The position numbers and the translations under genes were made by a program. A stretch of 10,087 nucleotides of DNA from positions 1 through 10,087 of the forward strand of contig JAFDHB010000127.1 in the NCBI GenBank assembly GCA_019308985.1, given 5' to 3'. The notes under the pieces are model-generated. The model was not told the origin of the DNA. It saw only the letters and a program-made list of their open reading frames with translations, and did not search any database. The stretch is from Deltaproteobacteria bacterium. GTDB lineage: Bacteria; Desulfobacterota; DSM-4660; Desulfatiglandales; HGW-15. Shown here piece after piece: positions 1-9,411 of the stretch (positions within the stretch are counted from its first letter, which is position 1; every line of letters starts with the position of its first letter).

Positions 1-585
1 ATCACGGTACCCGCGGGGCAGTCATATGAGAATACGGGAGTAGGGTTCATCAGTGCGGAGGCCGTTGTATCCCTGGCCAGGGCCATCGACGAGGAAAAGA
101 TCCCGGTCCACAAGATCCTGACGGTCATAGGCAAGGACAACTCCCGGGTTCACGCAAAGGTCCGGATCGGAACCCCTGTCAAAGACCTCCTTGATGGTCT
201 GAACATGGAAGCGGGGGAGAGGGACAGGGTCGTGTTGGGAGGGCCCATGACCGGCCGGGCTGTTTACTCCCCGGAAGACACCCCGATTTCCCGGGATACG
301 GATGCCATCATGGTCCAGGATGCTGCCGACATAATACTCAGTGAAGTCACCCCTTGTGTCAATTGCGGAGAATGCGTGAGGGTCTGTCCGGCGAAAATGC
401 CTGTCAACATGCTCATACGTTACCTGGAAAACGGCCTCATTGAAGATGCGGCCCATGATTACGACCTCTTGTCATGCATTGAATGCGGACTGTGCAGTTA
501 TGTGTGCATAGCGAGAATACCCCTTTTCCACTACATCATGTTTGGGAAGCATGAATTCACCCGGATGAAAGACGCGGAGGGATAA
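1..585 (+). CDS. rnfC: RnfC, Rnf complex Fe-S/NADH-binding subunit, 5'-truncated by window edge
   Basis: The reading frame is open from base 1 to the TAA at 583-585, giving the last 194 residues; the start lies outside the window. RnfC is the peripheral cytoplasmic subunit that binds NAD(H) and FMN and passes electrons through two [4Fe-4S] clusters. The NADH/FMN part is mostly missing here. The SLBB-like region (about residues 30-90 of the fragment) and the ferredoxin module are present. Cluster motifs are CVNCGECVRVCP (Cys 119, 122, 125, 129) and CIECGLCSYVC (Cys 159, 162, 165, 169). The second motif ends in Cys-Ile instead of the usual Cys-Pro, a mild deviation. The downstream IPLFHY resembles the RnfC tail. 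The stop lies one base before the rnfD start, and the rnfD Shine-Dalgarno sits inside the end of this gene, so the two are probably translationally coupled. The family call is secure. Confidence 0.95.
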   Translation: MTVPAGQSYENTGVGFISAEAVVSLARAIDEEKIPVHKILTVIGKDNSRVHAKVRIGTPVKDLLDGLNMEAGERDRVVLGGPMTGRAVYSPEDTPISRDTDAIMVQDAADIILSEVTPCVNCGECVRVCPAKMPVNMLIRYLENGLIEDAAHDYDLLSCIECGLCSYVCIARIPLFHYIMFGKHEFTRMKDAEG

Positions 586-586
586 T

Positions 587-1555
587 ATGGAGCACAAGAA
601 ACTCCTTATCGGTTCCCATGCCCCCTTCTTGCACAACGGGAGCAGTATCGGTGAAAAGAACCTGCATACAGGGCTTGCGGCACTTCCCGCAGTGCTCATG
701 GGAATATACCAGTACGGTGCCCCCGCCCTCGGGGTGGTAGCGCTATCCGTTTCCTTCGCCATGATATGGGAACTGCTCATGAACAGGGTCATGGGACGAC
801 CCTTGAGCATCATTGACTGGAACGCGGGCCTTATAGGCCTGCTTTTCGCAATGCTCATGCCAGCTACCATCCCCTGGTGGGCGGTGGTGTTGGGTACTTT
901 TGTTGCAATCGTCGTAGGCAAGCAGATCTTCGGGGGGATCGGGTGTAACCCCTTGCATCCCGTACTGGTAGCGGTCGCTACTATGATCTTGTCCTGGAAG
1001 GACCTGCTCGACTTCAACCAGGCCCTGGTAAACTACGATCTCGGATTCAACATGGTTTATCCCCTGTCTGCCGCCAAGGCCTTTGGATCATCAGCTGTAG
1101 AAAATTACTCCACCTTGGGCCTTCTCCTTGGCCAGCAATCCGGAGGGCTTGGTGCAACCTTTGGCATAGGCATCATTATCGGCGGCATGTACCTCATACT
1201 CCGTGGCTTTGTTAGGTGGGAAATCACTCTTTCCTATATTGTCGGTGTCTTTGTAACAGCCTTATTTTTCAACATCTCCAGTCCTGATCAGTACGCCGGA
1301 CCCATTTTTCATGTCCTTTCCGGCTACACCTTGATCATGGCCTTCTTTTTTCTTCCCGAGGATTCATCTTCTCCGGTGAATTTCGTGCCCATGTTGATAT
1401 ACGGGGCCATGGCCGGCTTTTTGACCGTGCTTGTCAGGAATGTAGGTGCCTTTGTGGACGGCGCGGTGTTCTCCGTGCTGCTGATGAATATCGCCAACCC
1501 CATGATAGATAAGATCAGACCCAGGGCATTGGGGAGGAGAGTGGAACATGCGTGA
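587..1555 (+). CDS. rnfD: RnfD, integral membrane subunit of Rnf, atypical FMN site
   Basis: This 322-aa polytopic membrane protein matches the RnfD/NqrB family. Hallmarks are the N-terminal SHAPFLHNGSS segment, GKQIFGGIGCNPLHPVL (about 111-127) and the C-terminal FFLPEDSSSPV...LVRNVGAF...LLMNIANPMID block. RnfD helps carry electrons through the membrane and normally holds FMN covalently on a threonine just before a Pro-Leu pair. Here the aligned stretch reads NMVYPLSAAKAFG (from residue 155), with Tyr158 where the threonine is expected, so covalent FMN is doubtful. The ATG at 587 is preceded by GGAGGG (576-581). The gene overlaps rnfG by 8 bases. The family is certain; the loss of flavinylation is inferred from the motif. 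Confidence 0.95.
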   Translation: MEHKKLLIGSHAPFLHNGSSIGEKNLHTGLAALPAVLMGIYQYGAPALGVVALSVSFAMIWELLMNRVMGRPLSIIDWNAGLIGLLFAMLMPATIPWWAVVLGTFVAIVVGKQIFGGIGCNPLHPVLVAVATMILSWKDLLDFNQALVNYDLGFNMVYPLSAAKAFGSSAVENYSTLGLLLGQQSGGLGATFGIGIIIGGMYLILRGFVRWEITLSYIVGVFVTALFFNISSPDQYAGPIFHVLSGYTLIMAFFFLPEDSSSPVNFVPMLIYGAMAGFLTVLVRNVGAFVDGAVFSVLLMNIANPMIDKIRPRALGRRVEHA

Positions 1556-2141
1556 AATGATCAGGCTTATTATTACGGTGCTCGTCTTCAGCGCATTTTC
1601 TGGGGGCCTGCTCGCGGCCTTGTACAACGGAACTCAGGCCCGCATCGAATACCAGGTGCTCAAGTTTGTCAAGGGACCAACCATAAAGCAAATCATGGCC
1701 GGGGCTGCCAATGATCCCCTTACGGACCGGTTCAAGCTGGAGGACGGCAAAATCGACAGGGAATTCTATGTCGGCGTTTTTGAAGGCAAACCCAAGGTAG
1801 TGGCCTTTGAATCATTTGGTAAAGGTTACGAGGGTGACCTTGGTGTCATTGTTGCTGTTGATGTTGAAAATGATAAGATTGTAGGGATCGGTGTGACCAC
1901 CCACCGTGAAACCCCGGGGGTCGGCTCAAGGGTCAAGACGGATCCATCCTTTGCCGAGCAATTCAAGGGCTTACCCCTCAAGGAGCCTTTTAAGATAAGG
2001 TTGGACGGAGGCCAGATTGATGCCGTCACCGGGGCATCCTTCTCCTCCCGGGGAGTGTGCGAGGCCGTGACTAAGGCCGCTGATGTTTACGCGAAACACA
2101 AAAAGGATATCCTGGAAAAACTGGAGACCCTAAGAACGTAA
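1548..2141 (+). CDS. rnfG: RnfG, membrane-anchored FMN-binding subunit of Rnf
   Basis: This 197-aa protein has one N-terminal membrane helix (about residues 5-26) followed by an extracytoplasmic FMN-binding domain. The family motif HRETPGVGSR is at 119-128. The flavinylation motif is DAVTGASFSS (158-167). The attachment residue would be Ser164 instead of the usual Thr; ApbE-type flavin transfer onto serine is plausible but not shown by the sequence. RnfG carries electrons on the outer face of the membrane with RnfD. The ATG is supported by GGAGGAG (1533-1539) and overlaps the end of rnfD by 8 bases, suggesting translational coupling. The length is normal for the family. Confidence 0.94.
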   Translation: MREMIRLIITVLVFSAFSGGLLAALYNGTQARIEYQVLKFVKGPTIKQIMAGAANDPLTDRFKLEDGKIDREFYVGVFEGKPKVVAFESFGKGYEGDLGVIVAVDVENDKIVGIGVTTHRETPGVGSRVKTDPSFAEQFKGLPLKEPFKIRLDGGQIDAVTGASFSSRGVCEAVTKAADVYAKHKKDILEKLETLRT

Positions 2142-2155
2142 GGAGTTAGTGACCC

Positions 2156-2749
2156 ATGGCAAAGAGTGCTGTTCAAGAATTCACCAAGGGACTTTGGGAG
2201 GAAATTCCTCCGTTTCGCCTCGTTCTTGGTCTTTGCCCTGTGCTGGCGGTAACAAAGGGGGTTGAGACCGGTATCGGCATGGGCATAGCCACTACCTTCG
2301 TGCTGGTATGTTCCAATATCATAATATCGCTTTTGAGGAATTTCATACCAAAGACGGTCCGTATCGCCTGCTTTATCGTTGTCATAGCTACCTTTGTCAC
2401 TGTAGTGGAGATCCTCATGCAGGCCTATGCCTATCCCCTGTTTCTCAAGCTGGGGATCTTTACACCTCTTATTGTGGTCAATTGCATCATCCTGGGTCGA
2501 GCAGAGGCCTTTGCCTCGAAGAGAAACGTCGTACATTCACTTGCGGACGGGCTCGGCATTGGTATCGGCTTTACACTCTCCCTTACCGCCCTTGCAATGA
2601 TCAGGGAGGTCTTTGGAAACGGTACCTTTTACAACATCCCGGTCTTCGGTCCGTCCTTCCAACCCTATAAGTTCATGGTCGAGGCACCCGGTGCATTCGT
2701 TTGTCTTGGTCTTATGCTGTGTATTATGAATATCCTGGGCAAGAAATGA
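2156..2749 (+). CDS. rnfE: RnfE, integral membrane subunit of Rnf
   Basis: This 197-aa hydrophobic protein of the RnfE/NqrD family is expected to have six membrane helices. The signature LVLGLCPVLAVT contains Cys27, and IVVNCIILGRAEAF contains Cys110. In this family these two cysteines, with two from RnfA, hold an intramembrane [2Fe-2S] cluster at the pseudo-twofold interface. Both are present. The segment SLADGLGIGIGFTLSL is also typical. The ATG at 2156 follows an AAGGAG at 2140-2145 that begins in the rnfG stop codon, with 14 bases between the genes. The C terminus ends in a short basic GKK tail. Nothing looks damaged. Confidence 0.95.
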   Translation: MAKSAVQEFTKGLWEEIPPFRLVLGLCPVLAVTKGVETGIGMGIATTFVLVCSNIIISLLRNFIPKTVRIACFIVVIATFVTVVEILMQAYAYPLFLKLGIFTPLIVVNCIILGRAEAFASKRNVVHSLADGLGIGIGFTLSLTALAMIREVFGNGTFYNIPVFGPSFQPYKFMVEAPGAFVCLGLMLCIMNILGKK

Positions 2750-2789: not shown

Positions 2790-3365
2790 ATGGGAGATCT
2801 GATATTTCTGGTAATAAGCTGTATCTTTGTCAACAATATCTTACTGATGCAATATCTGGGCAACTGTCCCTTTCTCGGGGTGTCCAAAAAGATGGAGACC
2901 GCTGTGGGCATGGCCATGGCGGTGATCTTTGTGCTGGTCATGGCAGGTGCCCTTACATGGGTCGTCAATCACTTTCTTTTGAGGCCCTTCGGCCTGGGTT
3001 ATCTGAGGACTGTGGCCTTCATACTGCTCATCGCATCACTGGTCCAGTTCGTGGAGATGTTTCTCAAGAAGAGCATACCTGCTCTTTATTCCGGATTAGG
3101 AATATTTCTGCCCCTTATAACGACAAACTGCGCAGTAATGGGAGTGGCGCTCATCTTGGACAAGGAGGATTACAATTTTATCCAGGCCCTGGTCGCCTCC
3201 TTTAGCTATGCGGCAGGTTTTGGACTGGCGCTAGTGCTCTTTGCCGGGGTAAGGGAACGGATCCTCTTGGCAAGGGTGCCGAAGCCGCTTCAGGATACTT
3301 CTATCGGGCTTGTAATGGCGGGGATGATGTCTCTAGCCTTCTTTGCATTCAAGGGGATGGCATAA
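2790..3365 (+). CDS. rnfA: RnfA, integral membrane subunit of Rnf
   Basis: This 191-aa protein of the RnfA/NqrE family is the partner and structural relative of RnfE. It carries NNILLMQYLGNCPFLGVSKK with Cys26 and LPLITTNCAVMGVAL with Cys114, the pair expected to complete the intramembrane [2Fe-2S] cluster with RnfE Cys27 and Cys110. It is predicted to have six membrane helices of inverted topology to RnfE. The end, VRERILLARVPKPLQDTSIGL...AFFAFKGMA, is typical. AGGAGGG (2777-2783) precedes the ATG by 6 bases, and the gap from rnfE is 40 bases. The next gene, rnfB, is 124 bases away, the widest gap in this operon. Confidence 0.95.
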   Translation: MGDLIFLVISCIFVNNILLMQYLGNCPFLGVSKKMETAVGMAMAVIFVLVMAGALTWVVNHFLLRPFGLGYLRTVAFILLIASLVQFVEMFLKKSIPALYSGLGIFLPLITTNCAVMGVALILDKEDYNFIQALVASFSYAAGFGLALVLFAGVRERILLARVPKPLQDTSIGLVMAGMMSLAFFAFKGMA

Positions 3366-3371
3366 ATGTCG

Positions 3372-3397
3372 GTTCGGATCGAACGTCTTGCTAGACG
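3372..3397 (+). repeat. Two adjacent small hairpins in the rnfA-rnfB gap
   Basis: GTTCG (3372-3376) pairs with CGAAC (3380-3384) around a GAT loop. CGTCT (3384-3388) pairs with AGACG (3393-3397) around TGCT. Both stems are perfect 5-base pairings and share base 3384. No T-run follows, so this is not a canonical terminator. It could slow or stabilise the mRNA between rnfA and rnfB, or be chance. Confidence 0.35.
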
Positions 3398-3415
3398 CGG
3401 GCGCAGGTAGTTTGA

Positions 3416-3444
3416 TTTCCAGGCAATGAATATTTTGTTATATT
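3416..3444 (+). promoter_or_regulatory. Candidate sigma70-like promoter for rnfB
   Basis: TTTCCA (3416-3421, 4 of 6 matches to TTGACA) is separated by exactly 17 bases from TATATT (3439-3444, 5 of 6 matches to TATAAT). A transcript would start near 3451 and leave a leader of about 40 bases before the rnfB ATG. This would allow rnfB to be expressed apart from rnfCDGEA. It is a pattern match only. Confidence 0.4.
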
Positions 3445-3489
3445 GTTGAGTGTTTCCAAGGTGTTCAAGGTGCTTCAAGGAGGAGCTTC

Positions 3490-5553
3490 ATGATTGTCGG
3501 ACTGCTGGTCATGAGCGGCCTGGGCTTGGCCGTCGGGGTTGGCTTGGCCCTCGCCTCAAAGGTATTCTATGTGTACGTGGATCCCAAGATAGAGCAAATC
3601 GAAGAGGCCCTGCCAGGGGCAAACTGTGGTGGTTGCGGGCTGCCCGGGTGCAGCGCTAATGCAGTTGCCATTGTTGAAGGCAAGGCTTCGGCCTCGTCCT
3701 GTGTAGCAGGCGGTCCTGAGCTTGCTTTCGAGATCGCCGGGATCCTCGGTGTGGAAGTGGAGGTGAAGGAGCCTGACATCGCTCGACCTGGCTGTACTTA
3801 TGGCGTGGGCGATCCTGGATGTGACCTCAAGTATATTTACAACGGTGCATATGACTGTAGGGCAGCAGCGCTCCTTGACGGAGGTTCCAAGGAATGCCCC
3901 ATAGGCTGTCTTGGCTTGGGTACCTGCGTGAGGGCCTGTCCTTTTGATGCACTTTCCATGGGGCCAGATAATCTGCCCAAGGTCGACATTTCAAAATGCA
4001 CGGGCTGTGGTACGTGCGAGAGGGTATGCCCAAAGCACATCATTACCCTGACCTCCAGCACAAGGAGAATAATCCACTTTAACGTCTTGGACGAATGCCT
4101 GGCCCCCTGTCAGCAGCGGTGTCCGGCCAACCTTGATATACCCCTTTACCTAAAACTCATCGCTGAAGGCCGGGACAAGGAAGCCCTTGATGTTATCAAG
4201 GAAAGAATCCCCATGCCCCTTTCTATAGGTCGGGTCTGTCCCCATTTTTGCGAATCCGTCTGTCGTCGGAATTATGTGGATGAACCCGTGAATATCAACC
4301 ACCTGAAGCGATTCTGCGCGGACATTGAAATGAAAGGGATAGACCGTTATGACGTCTATCTGGCCCCTCCCTCGGGAAAACGCGTTGCGATTATCGGTGG
4401 TGGACCTGCGGGACTTGCCGCCGCCTACTACTTGAAACGCCTTGGTCACGACTCTACAATCTTTGAGGCCATGCCTAAACTCGGCGGAATGTTGCGCTAC
4501 GGCATTCCGGAGTACAGGCTCCCCAAAAAGGTGTTGGACTGGGAAATAGACGGGATCATAGGGCTGGGAATCGATGTGCGCCTCAATGAAAGAATGGGCA
4601 AGCATTTCACCCTCAAGTCCCTGAGGGACGAAGGCTTTGATGCGGTATTCATTGGAATAGGGGCGTGGGGAGGCAGGAGCATGCGTGTCGAGGGAGAAGA
4701 CCTTGAGGGAGTCCTATCGGGAACGGAATTCTTGATCCAGCGTGGTCTTGAAAAGGAAGTCAAGATAGGCAAGAGGGTCGTGATAATCGGTGGAGGAAAC
4801 ACCGCTATTGATGCGGCCCGTACCTCGTGGAGGCTTGGTGCGGAGGAGGTCACCGTCCTTTACCGCAGGAGCCGCCAGGAGATGCCCGCAGCGGACTACG
4901 AGGTGGAAGAAGCCGAAATGGAGGGCGTGAAGTTCCATTTTCTCGCAGCCCCGACCCGGCTCATCGGTGAAAACGGTCGCCTCAAGGCCATTGAATTCTT
5001 GCGCATGGAACTCGGCGAGCCGGATGAAAGCGGGCGCCGCCGGCCTGTGCCCGTGGAGGGCACGGAGACGGTCATAGAAGTTGACAATGTCATTGCAGCC
5101 ATTGGCCAGTTCCCTGATCTCAAACCGGAGATTATCCAGTGTGACGGTATTGAACTCAAGACCACACGCTGGAACACCATTGATACCGACCCTGAGACAT
5201 TGCAAACGAACGTTGATTGGATCTTTGCCGGCGGTGACGTGGTTATCGGTGCCGCTACCGTGGTTGAGGCCCTTGCAGCGGCACGGAAGGCAGCATACTC
5301 GATTCACCGTTACTTGAACGGTGAGACCCGGGTTCGACCCATGGAAGGCATCAGAAAGGATATATGGGATGAGGCAAATGAAGAAGAAGTCAAGTCCCTG
5401 CCCAAGACCCCCAGGATAAAGATGCCTGACCTTCATGTACCCGAGCGCAAGGGTAATTTCAAGGAGGTTGAACTGGGCCTAACCCAGGAACAGGCCCGGG
5501 AGGCTGCAAGGCGATGCCTCCAATGTGGTATTTATTGCTACCAGAGAAACTGA
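3490..5553 (+). CDS. rnfB: RnfB fused to a GltD/NfnB-type FAD-NAD(P)H oxidoreductase
   Basis: This 687-aa protein joins two modules. Residues 1-25 are the RnfB membrane anchor. ANCGGCGLPGC with Cys71 (about 44-71) is the RnfB-specific [4Fe-4S] domain. CPIGCLGLGTCVRACP (136-151) and CTGCGTCERVCP (170-181) form the ferredoxin module that accepts electrons from ferredoxin. From about residue 200 a GltD-like module begins. Its Fe-S helical domain has Cys203, 207, 211, 250, 254, 258 and 276. An FAD-binding IIGGGPAGLAAAYYL follows (301-315), then an NAD(P)H-binding VIIGGGNTAIDAA (431-443) with VLYRRSRQEMPA (456-467), then AGGDVVIGAATVVEA (580-594). Ordinary RnfB ends after the ferredoxin part, so the extra roughly 480 residues are unusual. 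The tail holds a last Cys trio (676, 679, 683). AAGGAGGAG (3477-3485) precedes the ATG. The reading frame is unbroken across the junction. The added module may connect NADPH or ferredoxin directly to Rnf; that is inference. Confidence 0.93.
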   Translation: MIVGLLVMSGLGLAVGVGLALASKVFYVYVDPKIEQIEEALPGANCGGCGLPGCSANAVAIVEGKASASSCVAGGPELAFEIAGILGVEVEVKEPDIARPGCTYGVGDPGCDLKYIYNGAYDCRAAALLDGGSKECPIGCLGLGTCVRACPFDALSMGPDNLPKVDISKCTGCGTCERVCPKHIITLTSSTRRIIHFNVLDECLAPCQQRCPANLDIPLYLKLIAEGRDKEALDVIKERIPMPLSIGRVCPHFCESVCRRNYVDEPVNINHLKRFCADIEMKGIDRYDVYLAPPSGKRVAIIGGGPAGLAAAYYLKRLGHDSTIFEAMPKLGGMLRYGIPEYRLPKKVLDWEIDGIIGLGIDVRLNERMGKHFTLKSLRDEGFDAVFIGIGAWGGRSMRVEGEDLEGVLSGTEFLIQRGLEKEVKIGKRVVIIGGGNTAIDAARTSWRLGAEEVTVLYRRSRQEMPAADYEVEEAEMEGVKFHFLAAPTRLIGENGRLKAIEFLRMELGEPDESGRRRPVPVEGTETVIEVDNVIAAIGQFPDLKPEIIQCDGIELKTTRWNTIDTDPETLQTNVDWIFAGGDVVIGAATVVEALAAARKAAYSIHRYLNGETRVRPMEGIRKDIWDEANEEEVKSLPKTPRIKMPDLHVPERKGNFKEVELGLTQEQAREAARRCLQCGIYCYQRN

Positions 5554-7419: not shown

Positions 7420-8325
7420 GTGAAAGGCCGGGTCTTCACTGACACCACTGAGATCTTTTCCATAGACTACGGTGACATTATTAGAGTAGGACAGAAGCAT
7501 TACCGTGTAATCGGGCATGAGAGAGAATATCGTTTTGGGCTGGAAGATCCCAAATTTTGGGTCAAAAGGGCAGTAGATGTTGAAACAGGAGAGAAAAAGA
7601 TCATAAAACTGTCCTTCTTTGAATCTTTCGAGACCACCCTTGGAGGGGTGAAGGTGAGGTGCTTTAGAAATCCCACCAAGGAAGGTGAAATACTGGACCT
7701 TGTAAAGGATCATCCCTATTTTATGCATGGCACCGCACATATTGATGAGAAGGGGAACAATATCAGGATCCTAGAAATAGTGCATGGCCCGAACTTCTTG
7801 AATTACATTGATAATCTGGTCATGGGGCACGAGATATATTTTCACACCATACTCCCCGACATATTGAAAAAACTTGCAAAGGCCTTTGAGGCAATCCGCT
7901 TTCTCCATGTACATGGGTTCAAACACGGAGACATCCGCAATGACCACATCATAGTTGAACACCGTACGGGAAACTATACATGGATTGACTTTGATTATGA
8001 CTATGAGACCAGCGAAAACCCCTTTGGCTTGGATCTGTTCGGCATGGGGAATGTCCTCCTTTATGCACTGGGAAAGGGTTTCCACAATCTTTACATGATA
8101 AAACATGACACCTCCATATACAAAGACCTGGTTGAACGCCTCGAACCGGGAGATTTTTCCATACTTGATAAATGGAGATTCGTTAACCTGCAAAAACTCT
8201 TTCCCTATATACCTACACCCTTGAACGATATCCTCATGCATTTTTCTAGGGGCGCCAATATATACTACGAGTACGTTGAAGAAATCATTGAAGACTTAAA
8301 TAGGTCTCTTCATGCAATCGGATGA
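7420..8325 (+). CDS. Divergent protein-kinase-like protein
   Basis: This 301-aa protein has a GTG start, supported by AAGGAA (7405-7410) 9 bases upstream. A kinase fold is visible. A beta3-like KKIIKLSFF carries Lys63, and Glu88 or Glu90 in PTKEGEILDLV could be the helix C glutamate. HGFKHGDIRNDHIIVE (165-180) is the catalytic loop with Asp171. WIDFDYDYE (188-196) stands at the DFG position with Asp190, and the helix F region is LDLFGMGNVLLYALGKG (204-220). Deviations are clear: DFG reads DFD, the loop asparagine of HRDxxxxN is His176, and no classic glycine-rich loop is seen. It could be an active atypical kinase or a pseudokinase. It has no membrane segment. It lies between a GAF protein and a UspA protein, pointing to cytoplasmic stress or redox signalling. 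The kinase-like fold is fairly sure; activity and target are unknown. Confidence 0.75.
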   Translation: MKGRVFTDTTEIFSIDYGDIIRVGQKHYRVIGHEREYRFGLEDPKFWVKRAVDVETGEKKIIKLSFFESFETTLGGVKVRCFRNPTKEGEILDLVKDHPYFMHGTAHIDEKGNNIRILEIVHGPNFLNYIDNLVMGHEIYFHTILPDILKKLAKAFEAIRFLHVHGFKHGDIRNDHIIVEHRTGNYTWIDFDYDYETSENPFGLDLFGMGNVLLYALGKGFHNLYMIKHDTSIYKDLVERLEPGDFSILDKWRFVNLQKLFPYIPTPLNDILMHFSRGANIYYEYVEEIIEDLNRSLHAIG

Positions 8326-8327
8326 GA

Positions 8328-8336
8328 GGGGAGGAG
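8328..8336 (+). promoter_or_regulatory. Ribosome binding site that sets the TTG start of the UspA gene
   Basis: GGGGAGGAG (8328-8336) lies 4 bases before TTG 8341. No in-frame ATG gives a complete first beta strand: the codons after the TTG encode ANSILVSLS, the usual start of a UspA fold. The site overlaps the region just after the kinase stop codon, which favours coupled translation. Confidence 0.7.
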
Positions 8337-8340
8337 CATC

Positions 8341-8787
8341 TTGGCAAATTCCATACTTGTTTCACTGAGCGACTCTTTGAGTTCCAGGGCTGCCTTGGAC
8401 TTCTTGGGACGTCTCTCCTTCCGCCCCGAGGACACCTATATTACCCTCTTCCACCTTTACAGGAAACCATCTGCAAGCGAAGAATTGATGGGGAAAAAAT
8501 TTACCGAGGAGCAACCGGCAAGGTATTTGGCGGTCTTAGAAAAGGCCAAGGAAAAACTGGTTGAGTTTGGGTTTGATCCTAAGAAGATCAAGATTGAGAT
8601 GGTTACCAAGTCCTATGGTACGGTTTCTGAAGGTATCATTGAGATGTGCAAGAAGCATAAGTATGACCTTGTAATTATCGGGCGAAAACGTATGTCCAAG
8701 GCCGAAGAGTTCGTGCTGGGAGATGTGAGCGTAAAGCTTGTCAGATCACTGGAGGGGCCTGCCGTACTGGTTGTCAAGTCAGATTGA
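8341..8787 (+). CDS. Universal stress protein, UspA family
   Basis: This 148-aa protein starts with TTG and is a single Usp domain. Strand 1 is NSILVSLSDS, and the middle contains VLEKAKEKLVEFGFDPKKIKIEMV and SEGIIEMCKKHKYDLVIIGRKRMSKAEEFVLGDVSVKLVRSLEGPAVLVVKSD. The nucleotide-binding signature GxxG...GS/T is partly kept: Gly114 and GDVS (127-130) are present, but the second glycine of GxxG is Arg117. ATP binding is therefore possible but not certain. Usp proteins act in the cytoplasm under starvation or stress. The gene is 15 bases after the kinase-like gene and is probably cotranscribed with it and the GAF gene. Its downstream flank carries no terminator hairpin that I can see. Confidence 0.9.
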   Translation: MANSILVSLSDSLSSRAALDFLGRLSFRPEDTYITLFHLYRKPSASEELMGKKFTEEQPARYLAVLEKAKEKLVEFGFDPKKIKIEMVTKSYGTVSEGIIEMCKKHKYDLVIIGRKRMSKAEEFVLGDVSVKLVRSLEGPAVLVVKSD

Positions 8788-8842: not shown

Positions 8843-8940
8843 TTGCCCGGTTTCTTGGAGGGGGACCACTTCTTCATCCCATTATCAAGCAAATCAAAGT
8901 GCTTGGATCGCCACTAATAGGAAGGGAGGAAACTACACCC

Positions 8941-9411
8941 ATGAGGAAAACCCTGTTGCTTCTCTCATTGATTACGGTTACTGCTCTTGCTTTTTTTGCT
9001 GTTGGCGCTATCAAGGCCCAAGAAAAAAAGATCGAGGCCCCTGAAACAATCACGATCGAGACCCAGGGTCTCAAGAGAGATAAGAAGGGCCCGGTGATAT
9101 TCAGCCATAAGAAACACCAGGAAGAATACCTTAACGCGGAAGGCAAGAAGCCCATAGCATGTACCGAATGCCATCACGATTACAAGGAAGAGGGCGGCAA
9201 GCTGGTGAACGTATGGAAAGAGGGCCAGCACGTGCAGAAGTGCAACGAATGCCATGACCCCAACAAGAGCGAGGGCAAAAAGAAGAAGATTCAGCTTGCA
9301 ATGCACAAGAACTGCAAGGACTGCCATAAGACGCTTGTGAAGGCGAAGAAAACCAAAAAGGCCCCTTACAAGAAATGCACCGATTGCCATCAGAAGAAAA
9401 AAAAGAAATAG
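8941..9411 (+). CDS. Periplasmic tetraheme class III cytochrome c (cytochrome c3 type)
   Basis: The 156-aa precursor has a signal peptide (basic MRKT, hydrophobic 5-22, likely cleaved near AIKA/QEKK at 26/27). Four CxxCH heme sites are at 74-78, 101-105, 125-129 and 146-150. Extra histidines fit the distal ligands of cytochrome c3: His56 and His59 in FSHKKH, His79 directly after the first CxxCH, and His122 in AMHKNC. Such proteins shuttle electrons in the periplasm, typically from hydrogenase or formate dehydrogenase to membrane complexes. This mature protein is extremely basic: 33 lysines in about 130 residues, ending in five lysines. ATG 8941 was chosen because AGGGAGGA (8923-8930) precedes it and the signal peptide starts there; an upstream in-frame start at 8899 would put 14 residues in front of the signal. 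Its substrate and any link to the Rnf complex encoded upstream are inferred. Confidence 0.92.
   Translation: MRKTLLLLSLITVTALAFFAVGAIKAQEKKIEAPETITIETQGLKRDKKGPVIFSHKKHQEEYLNAEGKKPIACTECHHDYKEEGGKLVNVWKEGQHVQKCNECHDPNKSEGKKKKIQLAMHKNCKDCHKTLVKAKKTKKAPYKKCTDCHQKKKKK

Follow-up and report, generated by a model that had tools for sequence, protein, structure and literature searches.

An RnfB fused to a GltD-type flavoprotein module in an Rnf2-type operon whose return electron path is probably lost

The fused rnfB gene

The window analysed here (the whole stretch of 10,087 nucleotides, contig JAFDHB010000127.1 of assembly GCA_019308985.1, Deltaproteobacteria bacterium) carries an rnf operon closed by an rnfB gene that is fused to a flavoprotein module of the kind that binds flavin adenine dinucleotide (FAD) and NAD(P)H. 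This fused gene, and the Rnf complex to which it would belong, are the subject of this study. Its features are as follows (the module types A and B are described in the third section).

3490..5553, forward strand: rnfB-GltD-type fusion, one ATG-started frame of 687 amino acids without internal stop
3490..4065, forward strand: RnfB part, with N-terminal helix (residues 2-25), small iron-sulfur domain (Cys 46/49/54/71) and 2[4Fe-4S] ferredoxin domain (Cys 136-180)
4096..4317, forward strand: GltD-type iron-sulfur helical domain, Cys 203/207/211 and 250/254/258; Lys273 (4306-4308) at the position of StnC K170
4396..4416, forward strand: first FAD motif GGGPAGL, residues 303-309
4789..4890, forward strand: NAD(P)H motifs GGGNTAID (434-441) and YRRSRQEMPA (458-467), invariant in 27 of 27 type A proteins except at 440, 461, 462 and 463
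5224..5238, forward strand: second FAD motif FAGGD, residues 579-583
5515..5538, forward strand: C-terminal CLQCGIYC tail, residues 676-683

The protein consists of RnfB (residues 1-192) and a complete GltD-type FAD/NAD(P)H module (200-687). Pfam matches were FeS (PF04060) at 41-72, the 4Fe-4S pair models at 139-186, Fer4_20 at 204-282 and Pyr_redox_2 at 298-596. The NCBIfam cut-offs were passed for both halves, by TIGR01944 rnfB (85.2, cut-off 68.7) and by NF009410 NAD(P)-binding protein (518.8, cut-off 516); the longest RnfB-type NCBIfam match spans residues 2-211 and the PRK12814 match 192-680. Of the 7998 candidates scored in a protein search with the fusion, 7988 reached E<=1e-3; the 120 matches listed were 678-721 amino acids long and 59-91% identical, with a query coverage of 96-100%. 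The fusion of locus L001, a metagenome-assembled genome contig, is 91% identical over residues 20-687 and 92-95% identical in 40-residue windows around the junction. Considering that full-length homologues exist, the fusion is not an assembly artefact; these homologues and the junction identity to L001 exclude a sequencing error or chimeric assembly between RnfB and the module, including the stop that an earlier note, made from the sequence alone, had thought might be hidden near 4050-4100. The in-frame fusion described in that note was borne out by the single 687-residue frame, the domain matches and the homologues, and frames of comparable length recur in all 120 listed matches and in at least 40 genomes of the survey given below. 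The module that it had placed at residues 200-600 is present but does not end at 600, running on to the CxxCxxxC tail at 676-683.

In a HMMER alignment the C-terminal end of the fusion fell on the ERCLQC element that stands at the N-terminus of two NfnL chains, so that the module looks circularly rearranged. A pyridine-nucleotide site at the fused RnfB is very likely, judging from the intact motifs and from a fold shared with NADP(H) modules; most rows of this structural comparison cover residues 202-646, and the RnfB part was barely tested by it. StnC of Sporomusa ovata (8OH5) and the large subunits of NfnABC (9BOV, 9N5U) have the GltD fold in common with the module, and their iron-sulfur ligands, including the Lys, their FAD and NADPH motifs and their C-terminal Cys tail are all found in it. 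In those proteins, however, the module is joined to other domains and accompanied by a separate bifurcating module (StnAB), whereas here it is joined to RnfB, and Cys114 of StnC corresponds to Ile217 of the fusion (by eye from the alignment).

The fold and nucleotide motifs are also shared with NfnAB (NfnI), and the earlier note had suggested an Nfn-like reaction joined to the ion pump. In such bifurcation at RnfB, the two electrons of NADPH would part at the GltD-type FAD, one reducing ferredoxin and the other entering the Rnf core. NfnAB, however, has a Glu-ligated proximal cluster, an NfnA partner and an N-terminal CLQC, whereas the fusion has Lys273 and a C-terminal CLQC. The residue aligned with the Glu ligand of NfnB was Lys in all 54 fused proteins aligned (K273 in the window), and the FAD of StnC, with Lys at its proximal cluster, is reported to have lost bifurcation (excerpt of PMC10482914). 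Moreover, no NfnA partner was found among the window genes scanned with Pfam and NCBIfam (7420-8325 lies outside the scan). Bifurcation is thus disfavoured, and we regard it as quite unlikely.

The fusion is a member of a known and widespread kind. An Rnf of the Desulfobacula toluolica type was reportedly first described by Woehlbrand in 2013. An Rnf with an RnfB of about 700 amino acids bearing NAD-binding sites is described for D. toluolica Tol2, and the same type, called Rnf2, for Desulfococcus multivorans, with a cytochrome gene in the cluster; its RnfC is described as being without the NADH-ubiquinone-oxidoreductase (51K) and SLBB domains, and its mode of action is said to await experimental verification (excerpt of PMC5109826). 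The window agrees with this type in its 687-residue RnfB with intact motifs; an altered RnfC, and a cytochrome gene as in the D. multivorans cluster, are seen in the complete operon of L001. Rnf2 has been reported as core and constitutively formed in Desulfobacteraceae (excerpt of PMC11887813). We surveyed 395 genomes from the phylum of the L001 genome, with at most 8 candidates scored per genome, and obtained an RnfB match at E<=1e-20 in 130 of them. By hand count among the matches listed, at least 55 RnfB matches had open frames of more than 600 amino acids, in at least 40 genomes, and at least 15 genomes had two. One genome (G156), in which a short RnfB is encoded at 3.096 Mb and a fused RnfB at 3.115 Mb, resembles D. 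multivorans with its rnf1 and rnf2 as given in the excerpt of PMC5109826. The fusion might, the earlier note had cautioned, be already well described, common and of known function; of these three points the first two are borne out.

Nucleotide and flavin sites of the fused-type Rnf

In the window the fusion gene follows rnfC (partial), rnfD, rnfG, rnfE and rnfA, so that the canonical Rnf set, the rnfCDGEA genes and the RnfB iron-sulfur domains, is present (rnfC partial). FMN below stands for flavin mononucleotide.

1..585, forward strand: rnfC, C-terminal 194 amino acids, cut by the window edge; both CxxCxxCxxxC cluster motifs; TIGR01945 positions 248-432
587..1555, forward strand: rnfD, with NMVYPL at 1049-1066 in place of the canonical [ST]xATP flavinylation motif
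1548..2141, forward strand: rnfG, covalent-FMN motif TGAS at 2028-2039; NF045876 RnfG_DVU2794 above cut-off
2156..2749, forward strand: rnfE, by Pfam and NCBIfam profiles
2790..3365, forward strand: rnfA, by Pfam and NCBIfam profiles
8899..9411, forward strand: tetraheme c-type cytochrome, downstream of the fusion, from which 3.3 kb and four genes separate it

The complete operon of L001 consists of a tetraheme cytochrome, rnfC, D, G, E, A, the fused rnfB and a second tetraheme cytochrome. The window cytochrome is 84% identical to the one behind the L001 fusion and about 29-36% identical to pre-rnfC cytochromes elsewhere.

We compared 82 loci and scored RnfC for the FMN/NADH patterns GGxxFPT and NxAECE. 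Besides the window and L001, the set comprised 80 regions, of which 52 came from the 54 other long-frame survey matches and 28 were short ones hand-picked over the score range. RnfB was fused in 54 loci and short in 28. Both patterns were absent in all 28 complete RnfCs beside a fused RnfB, L001 included; in one of these loci (L095) the fusion lies on the opposite strand, about 6 kb away. The window RnfC is cut before the FMN/NADH region, and the remaining 25 fused loci had no rnfC in the fetched stretch (L054, L061 and L115 for lack of contig). The short-RnfB loci had both patterns in 21 cases and neither in seven, while in ten further RnfCs both were absent in nine and L163 matched one of the two. 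Seven RnfCs were scanned for Complex1_51K (cut-off 31.2 bits): the fused-type ones scored 20.9 (L001), 26.9 (L055), 21.8 (L087) and 43.3 (L105), the short motif-less L118 scored 38.9, and two canonical ones 181.1 and 164.6. SLBB was listed only for L105 and the two canonical RnfCs, and not for L001. Because the RnfC of the fused type lacks the FMN/NADH motifs, the RnfB site is the only recognisable nucleotide entry, and it looks like the only one in this type of Rnf. The 'second pyridine-nucleotide entry at RnfB' of the earlier note was therefore right about an entry at RnfB, with its intact motifs and fold, but not about its being second; it would be the main one.

Canonical RnfD carries [ST]xATP around its flavinylated Thr. 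This motif was found in all 19 site-bearing operons with RnfD in the stretch (two had none), but in only 1 of 28 fused-type operons (L105) and 1 of 7 short motif-less ones (L121), and it is absent in the window. The RnfG motif [ST]GA[ST] was found in 28 of 29 fused-type operons, including the window, the 29th (L095) having no RnfG in the stretch. It ends in Ser in the window and in L001 (SGAS) and reads GAT in the 26 other operons; since the ApbE motif is written [S/T]GA[S/T] (excerpt of PMC8238504), this Ser need not matter. A cytochrome with at least three CxxCH preceded rnfC by no more than 1.5 kb in 18 of the 28 fused operons and in 5 of the 7 short motif-less ones, but in none of the 21 site-bearing operons. 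The corresponding region of the window lies beyond its edge, and its tetraheme cytochrome stands behind the fusion; L001 has one on each side of the operon. Crude cysteine patterns of RnfA and RnfE, which proved of no diagnostic value, were found in both proteins in the window, in 22 of 28 fused and in only 8 of 21 site-bearing operons.

In the normal Rnf core, electrons run out to RnfG and back via RnfD to RnfC (excerpt of PMC9588780). Considering that both stations of the return path are altered in fused-type operons, while the RnfG motif is kept and a cytochrome often precedes rnfC, an exit at RnfG is indicated, and the way back to RnfC seems interrupted. NQR/RNF-like systems of two subunits that lack the RnfD-type Thr have been proposed to work one way (excerpt of PMC10979944) and thus offer a precedent for the one-way principle.

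Module types, unlinked fusions and their partner operons

The 54 aligned fused proteins divided into 27 of type A, with an intact nucleotide site, and 27 of type B, in which it is degenerate. N437, T438, A439, D441, Y458, R459 and R460 are invariant in type A; among the 27 of type B, N437 is retained in 4, D441 in 7, R459 in 17 and R460 in 2. In the second FAD motif, D583 is present in all 27 A proteins and in 10 of the B proteins. Twenty-two of the 26 cysteines of the window fusion are invariant in A and B. C203 occurs in every B protein and in 20 of the 27 A proteins, and the other three (C111, C276 and C551) show no conservation. The B modules thus keep their clusters and have mostly lost the nucleotide motifs. 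Fourteen of 15 two-copy genomes could be typed by tree at both copies, and each had one A and one B; the 15th (G306) had one A copy and one without the A motifs. In seven of the 14 it is the A copy that belongs to the rnf operon and in three the B copy; both copies lie away from the rnf core in three, and the contigs of G266 are too short to place them.

On the evidence of its two parts, the window fusion is a chimera in which a type A module is attached to an RnfB whose closest relatives have type B modules. It differs in this from the described Rnf2/Tol2 type: by kinship the rnf operon is of the tetraheme type, and its A module is intact. Its RnfB part averages 75% identity to eight tetraheme-rnf relatives (L086-L093, all B) and its module only 38%, whereas both parts are 59% identical to six A-type rows. 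In the RnfB tree the window groups with L086-L093 (97/91), and in the module tree it falls with type A. Forcing the RnfB part with the six A rows was rejected (approximately unbiased (AU) test, p 0.00027), and so was forcing the whole module to group with 18 rows drawn from the broader RnfB clade (AU p 1.4e-8), a group that is not exact, one row (L114) lying outside that clade in the careful RnfB tree; as the tested groups were named after the trees had been seen, all AU p values are lenient. Fast decay of B as the sole cause of the A/B split was rejected as well: on the conserved stretch 200-372, with no long branches, the split persisted (100/99), and constraining the window and L001 to group with the same 18 rows was again rejected (AU p 0.0009). 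The A/B state needs 4 changes on the RnfB tree. Two window genes at 7420-8787 (one kinase-like by eye, one UspA-like) are 59% and 47% identical to the pair beside the unlinked type B rnfB of L094, with the order kept.

An RnfD match was found in 19 of 20 genomes searched. Ten operons without a fusion directly behind them were examined, and eight of these are rnfCDGEA without rnfB behind rnfA (only about 760 bases follow rnfA in L168, and in L164 the L095 fusion lies some kb off on the opposite strand). The contig of the ninth (L165) ends inside rnfG, and the tenth (L163) carries a broken fused rnfB behind rnfA at 7884-8392, split into a 92-residue N-terminal fragment and a second frame that holds the C-terminal tail; the same genome (G246) has an intact type B fusion elsewhere (L106). 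G035 and G377 each have one RnfD match, one rnfCDGEA core without rnfB, and two unlinked fusions elsewhere, one A and one B. In both genomes nfnAB stands directly behind cytochrome-rnfCDGEA, where rnfB often stands (L160 7972-10433, L161 2555-4860).

These unlinked copies bear on the idea that the module is a membrane-tethered NADPH:ferredoxin oxidoreductase that is not wired to the Rnf core. In its favour, 25 of 54 fused RnfBs had no rnfC in the fetched stretch, and G312 gave no RnfD match. At least three of the 25 (L054, L061, L115) are, however, explained by lack of contig, and in L115 rnfE and rnfA precede the fused RnfB. Moreover, none of the 14 cluster cysteines in the RnfB part varies among the 54 proteins, and neither G035 nor G377 yielded any RnfB other than its two unlinked fusions (with no more than 8 candidates scored) while an rnfB-less core stands elsewhere. 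An unwired module is therefore improbable.

Unlinked B fusions in L094 (1335-6849), L102 (5680-11279) and L106 (1083-6666) follow NuoE-like, DRTGG and NuoF/HydB-like genes and precede an RseC-like gene, as called by Pfam for all four L094 genes, the NuoF-like genes of L102 and L106 and the RseC of L096 and L099, and otherwise by sequence pattern. This cluster is possibly an NADH feeding module. Because G035 and G377 combine one rnfCDGEA core with unlinked A and B fusions, we tentatively suggest that Rnf2 could be a half-path Rnf with exchangeable inputs, in which RnfB-A would feed one core from NADPH and RnfB-B from another donor (the NuoE/HydB-type NADH module with RseC beside it in three loci), the A module having moved onto the operon-borne RnfB in the window lineage. 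Among other settings, the unlinked A fusions of L047 (8883-13001) and L111 (1647-3755) stand before a small gene and a membrane protein (by eye in L111; in L047 Nitrate_red_gam by Pfam and probably DsrM-like), and the B fusion in a D. baarsii-like genome (L051, about 3351-5492) adjoins a formate-tetrahydrofolate-ligase-like gene (by eye).

A proposed one-way electron path

We favour, with modest conviction, the reading that the fusion is the electron-input subunit of an Rnf2-type half-path complex, which would work in one direction and without bifurcation as an NAD(P)H (or ferredoxin):cytochrome c oxidoreductase. The C-terminal module would exchange hydride between NADP(H), possibly also NAD(H), and its FAD. 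Single electrons would then pass through the two module [4Fe-4S] clusters into the ferredoxin domain of RnfB and on to its small N-terminal cluster domain. From there they would cross by way of the Fe centre that lies between RnfA and RnfE and reach the FMN of RnfG on the outer side of the membrane. With the FMN/NADH motifs lost from RnfC and the covalent-FMN motif from RnfD, the return half of the path is probably gone, in which case electrons would leave (or enter) at RnfG via a periplasmic multiheme cytochrome c; ion movement may or may not have been retained. A multiheme cytochrome is also part of the rnf operon of Methanosarcina acetivorans. That Rnf is alike in its multiheme cytochrome and in making no use of NAD(P) at RnfC, but its RnfB is without a flavoprotein (excerpt of PMC4023990).

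The path might also run in reverse, an ion gradient driving electrons from the periplasmic cytochrome via RnfB to NADP+ or ferredoxin. Rnf is assumed to be bidirectional (excerpt of PMC5109826), but ion coupling is doubtful if the return path is lost, and we hold reverse use to be rather doubtful.

Several observations weigh against the one-way reading. Complex1_51K exceeded the Pfam cut-off in L105 and L118, and both RnfC [4Fe-4S] motifs are kept in 28 of 28 fused-type RnfCs, which a dead return path would not need. L001 has to stand in for the truncated RnfC of the window. Thr occupies the aligned RnfD column in 4 of 28 fused rows, and a non-covalent flavin is possible. Ten of the 28 fused operons have no cytochrome before rnfC, which rules out a cytochrome as universal partner of the fused-type Rnf, and G312 combines a fused RnfB with no RnfD match. 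All 54 fused RnfBs form one clade, so their counts are not independent replicates, and an independent co-loss of the RnfC site with gain of the fusion cannot be shown. Finally, Rnf2 has been taken as a sodium pump linking the NADH and ferredoxin pools (excerpt of PMC11887813).

As far as our literature search reached, the loss of the RnfD motif, the RnfG/cytochrome pattern, the A/B pairing and the module swap of the window appear to be new; the first, third and fourth were computed from a hand-chosen set, mostly of one phylum. No statement of RnfD motif loss for Rnf2 was found in the literature searched, supplements being outside that search. Taken with the intact NADP(H) module, the loss of the return-path motifs gives a concrete proposal for Rnf2, in which NAD(P)H or ferredoxin would be the input and a periplasmic cytochrome the output. 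The A/B pair of RnfBs offers a simple genetic test, and if the exchangeable-input reading is true, Rnf2 would be a membrane redox complex with plug-in donors.
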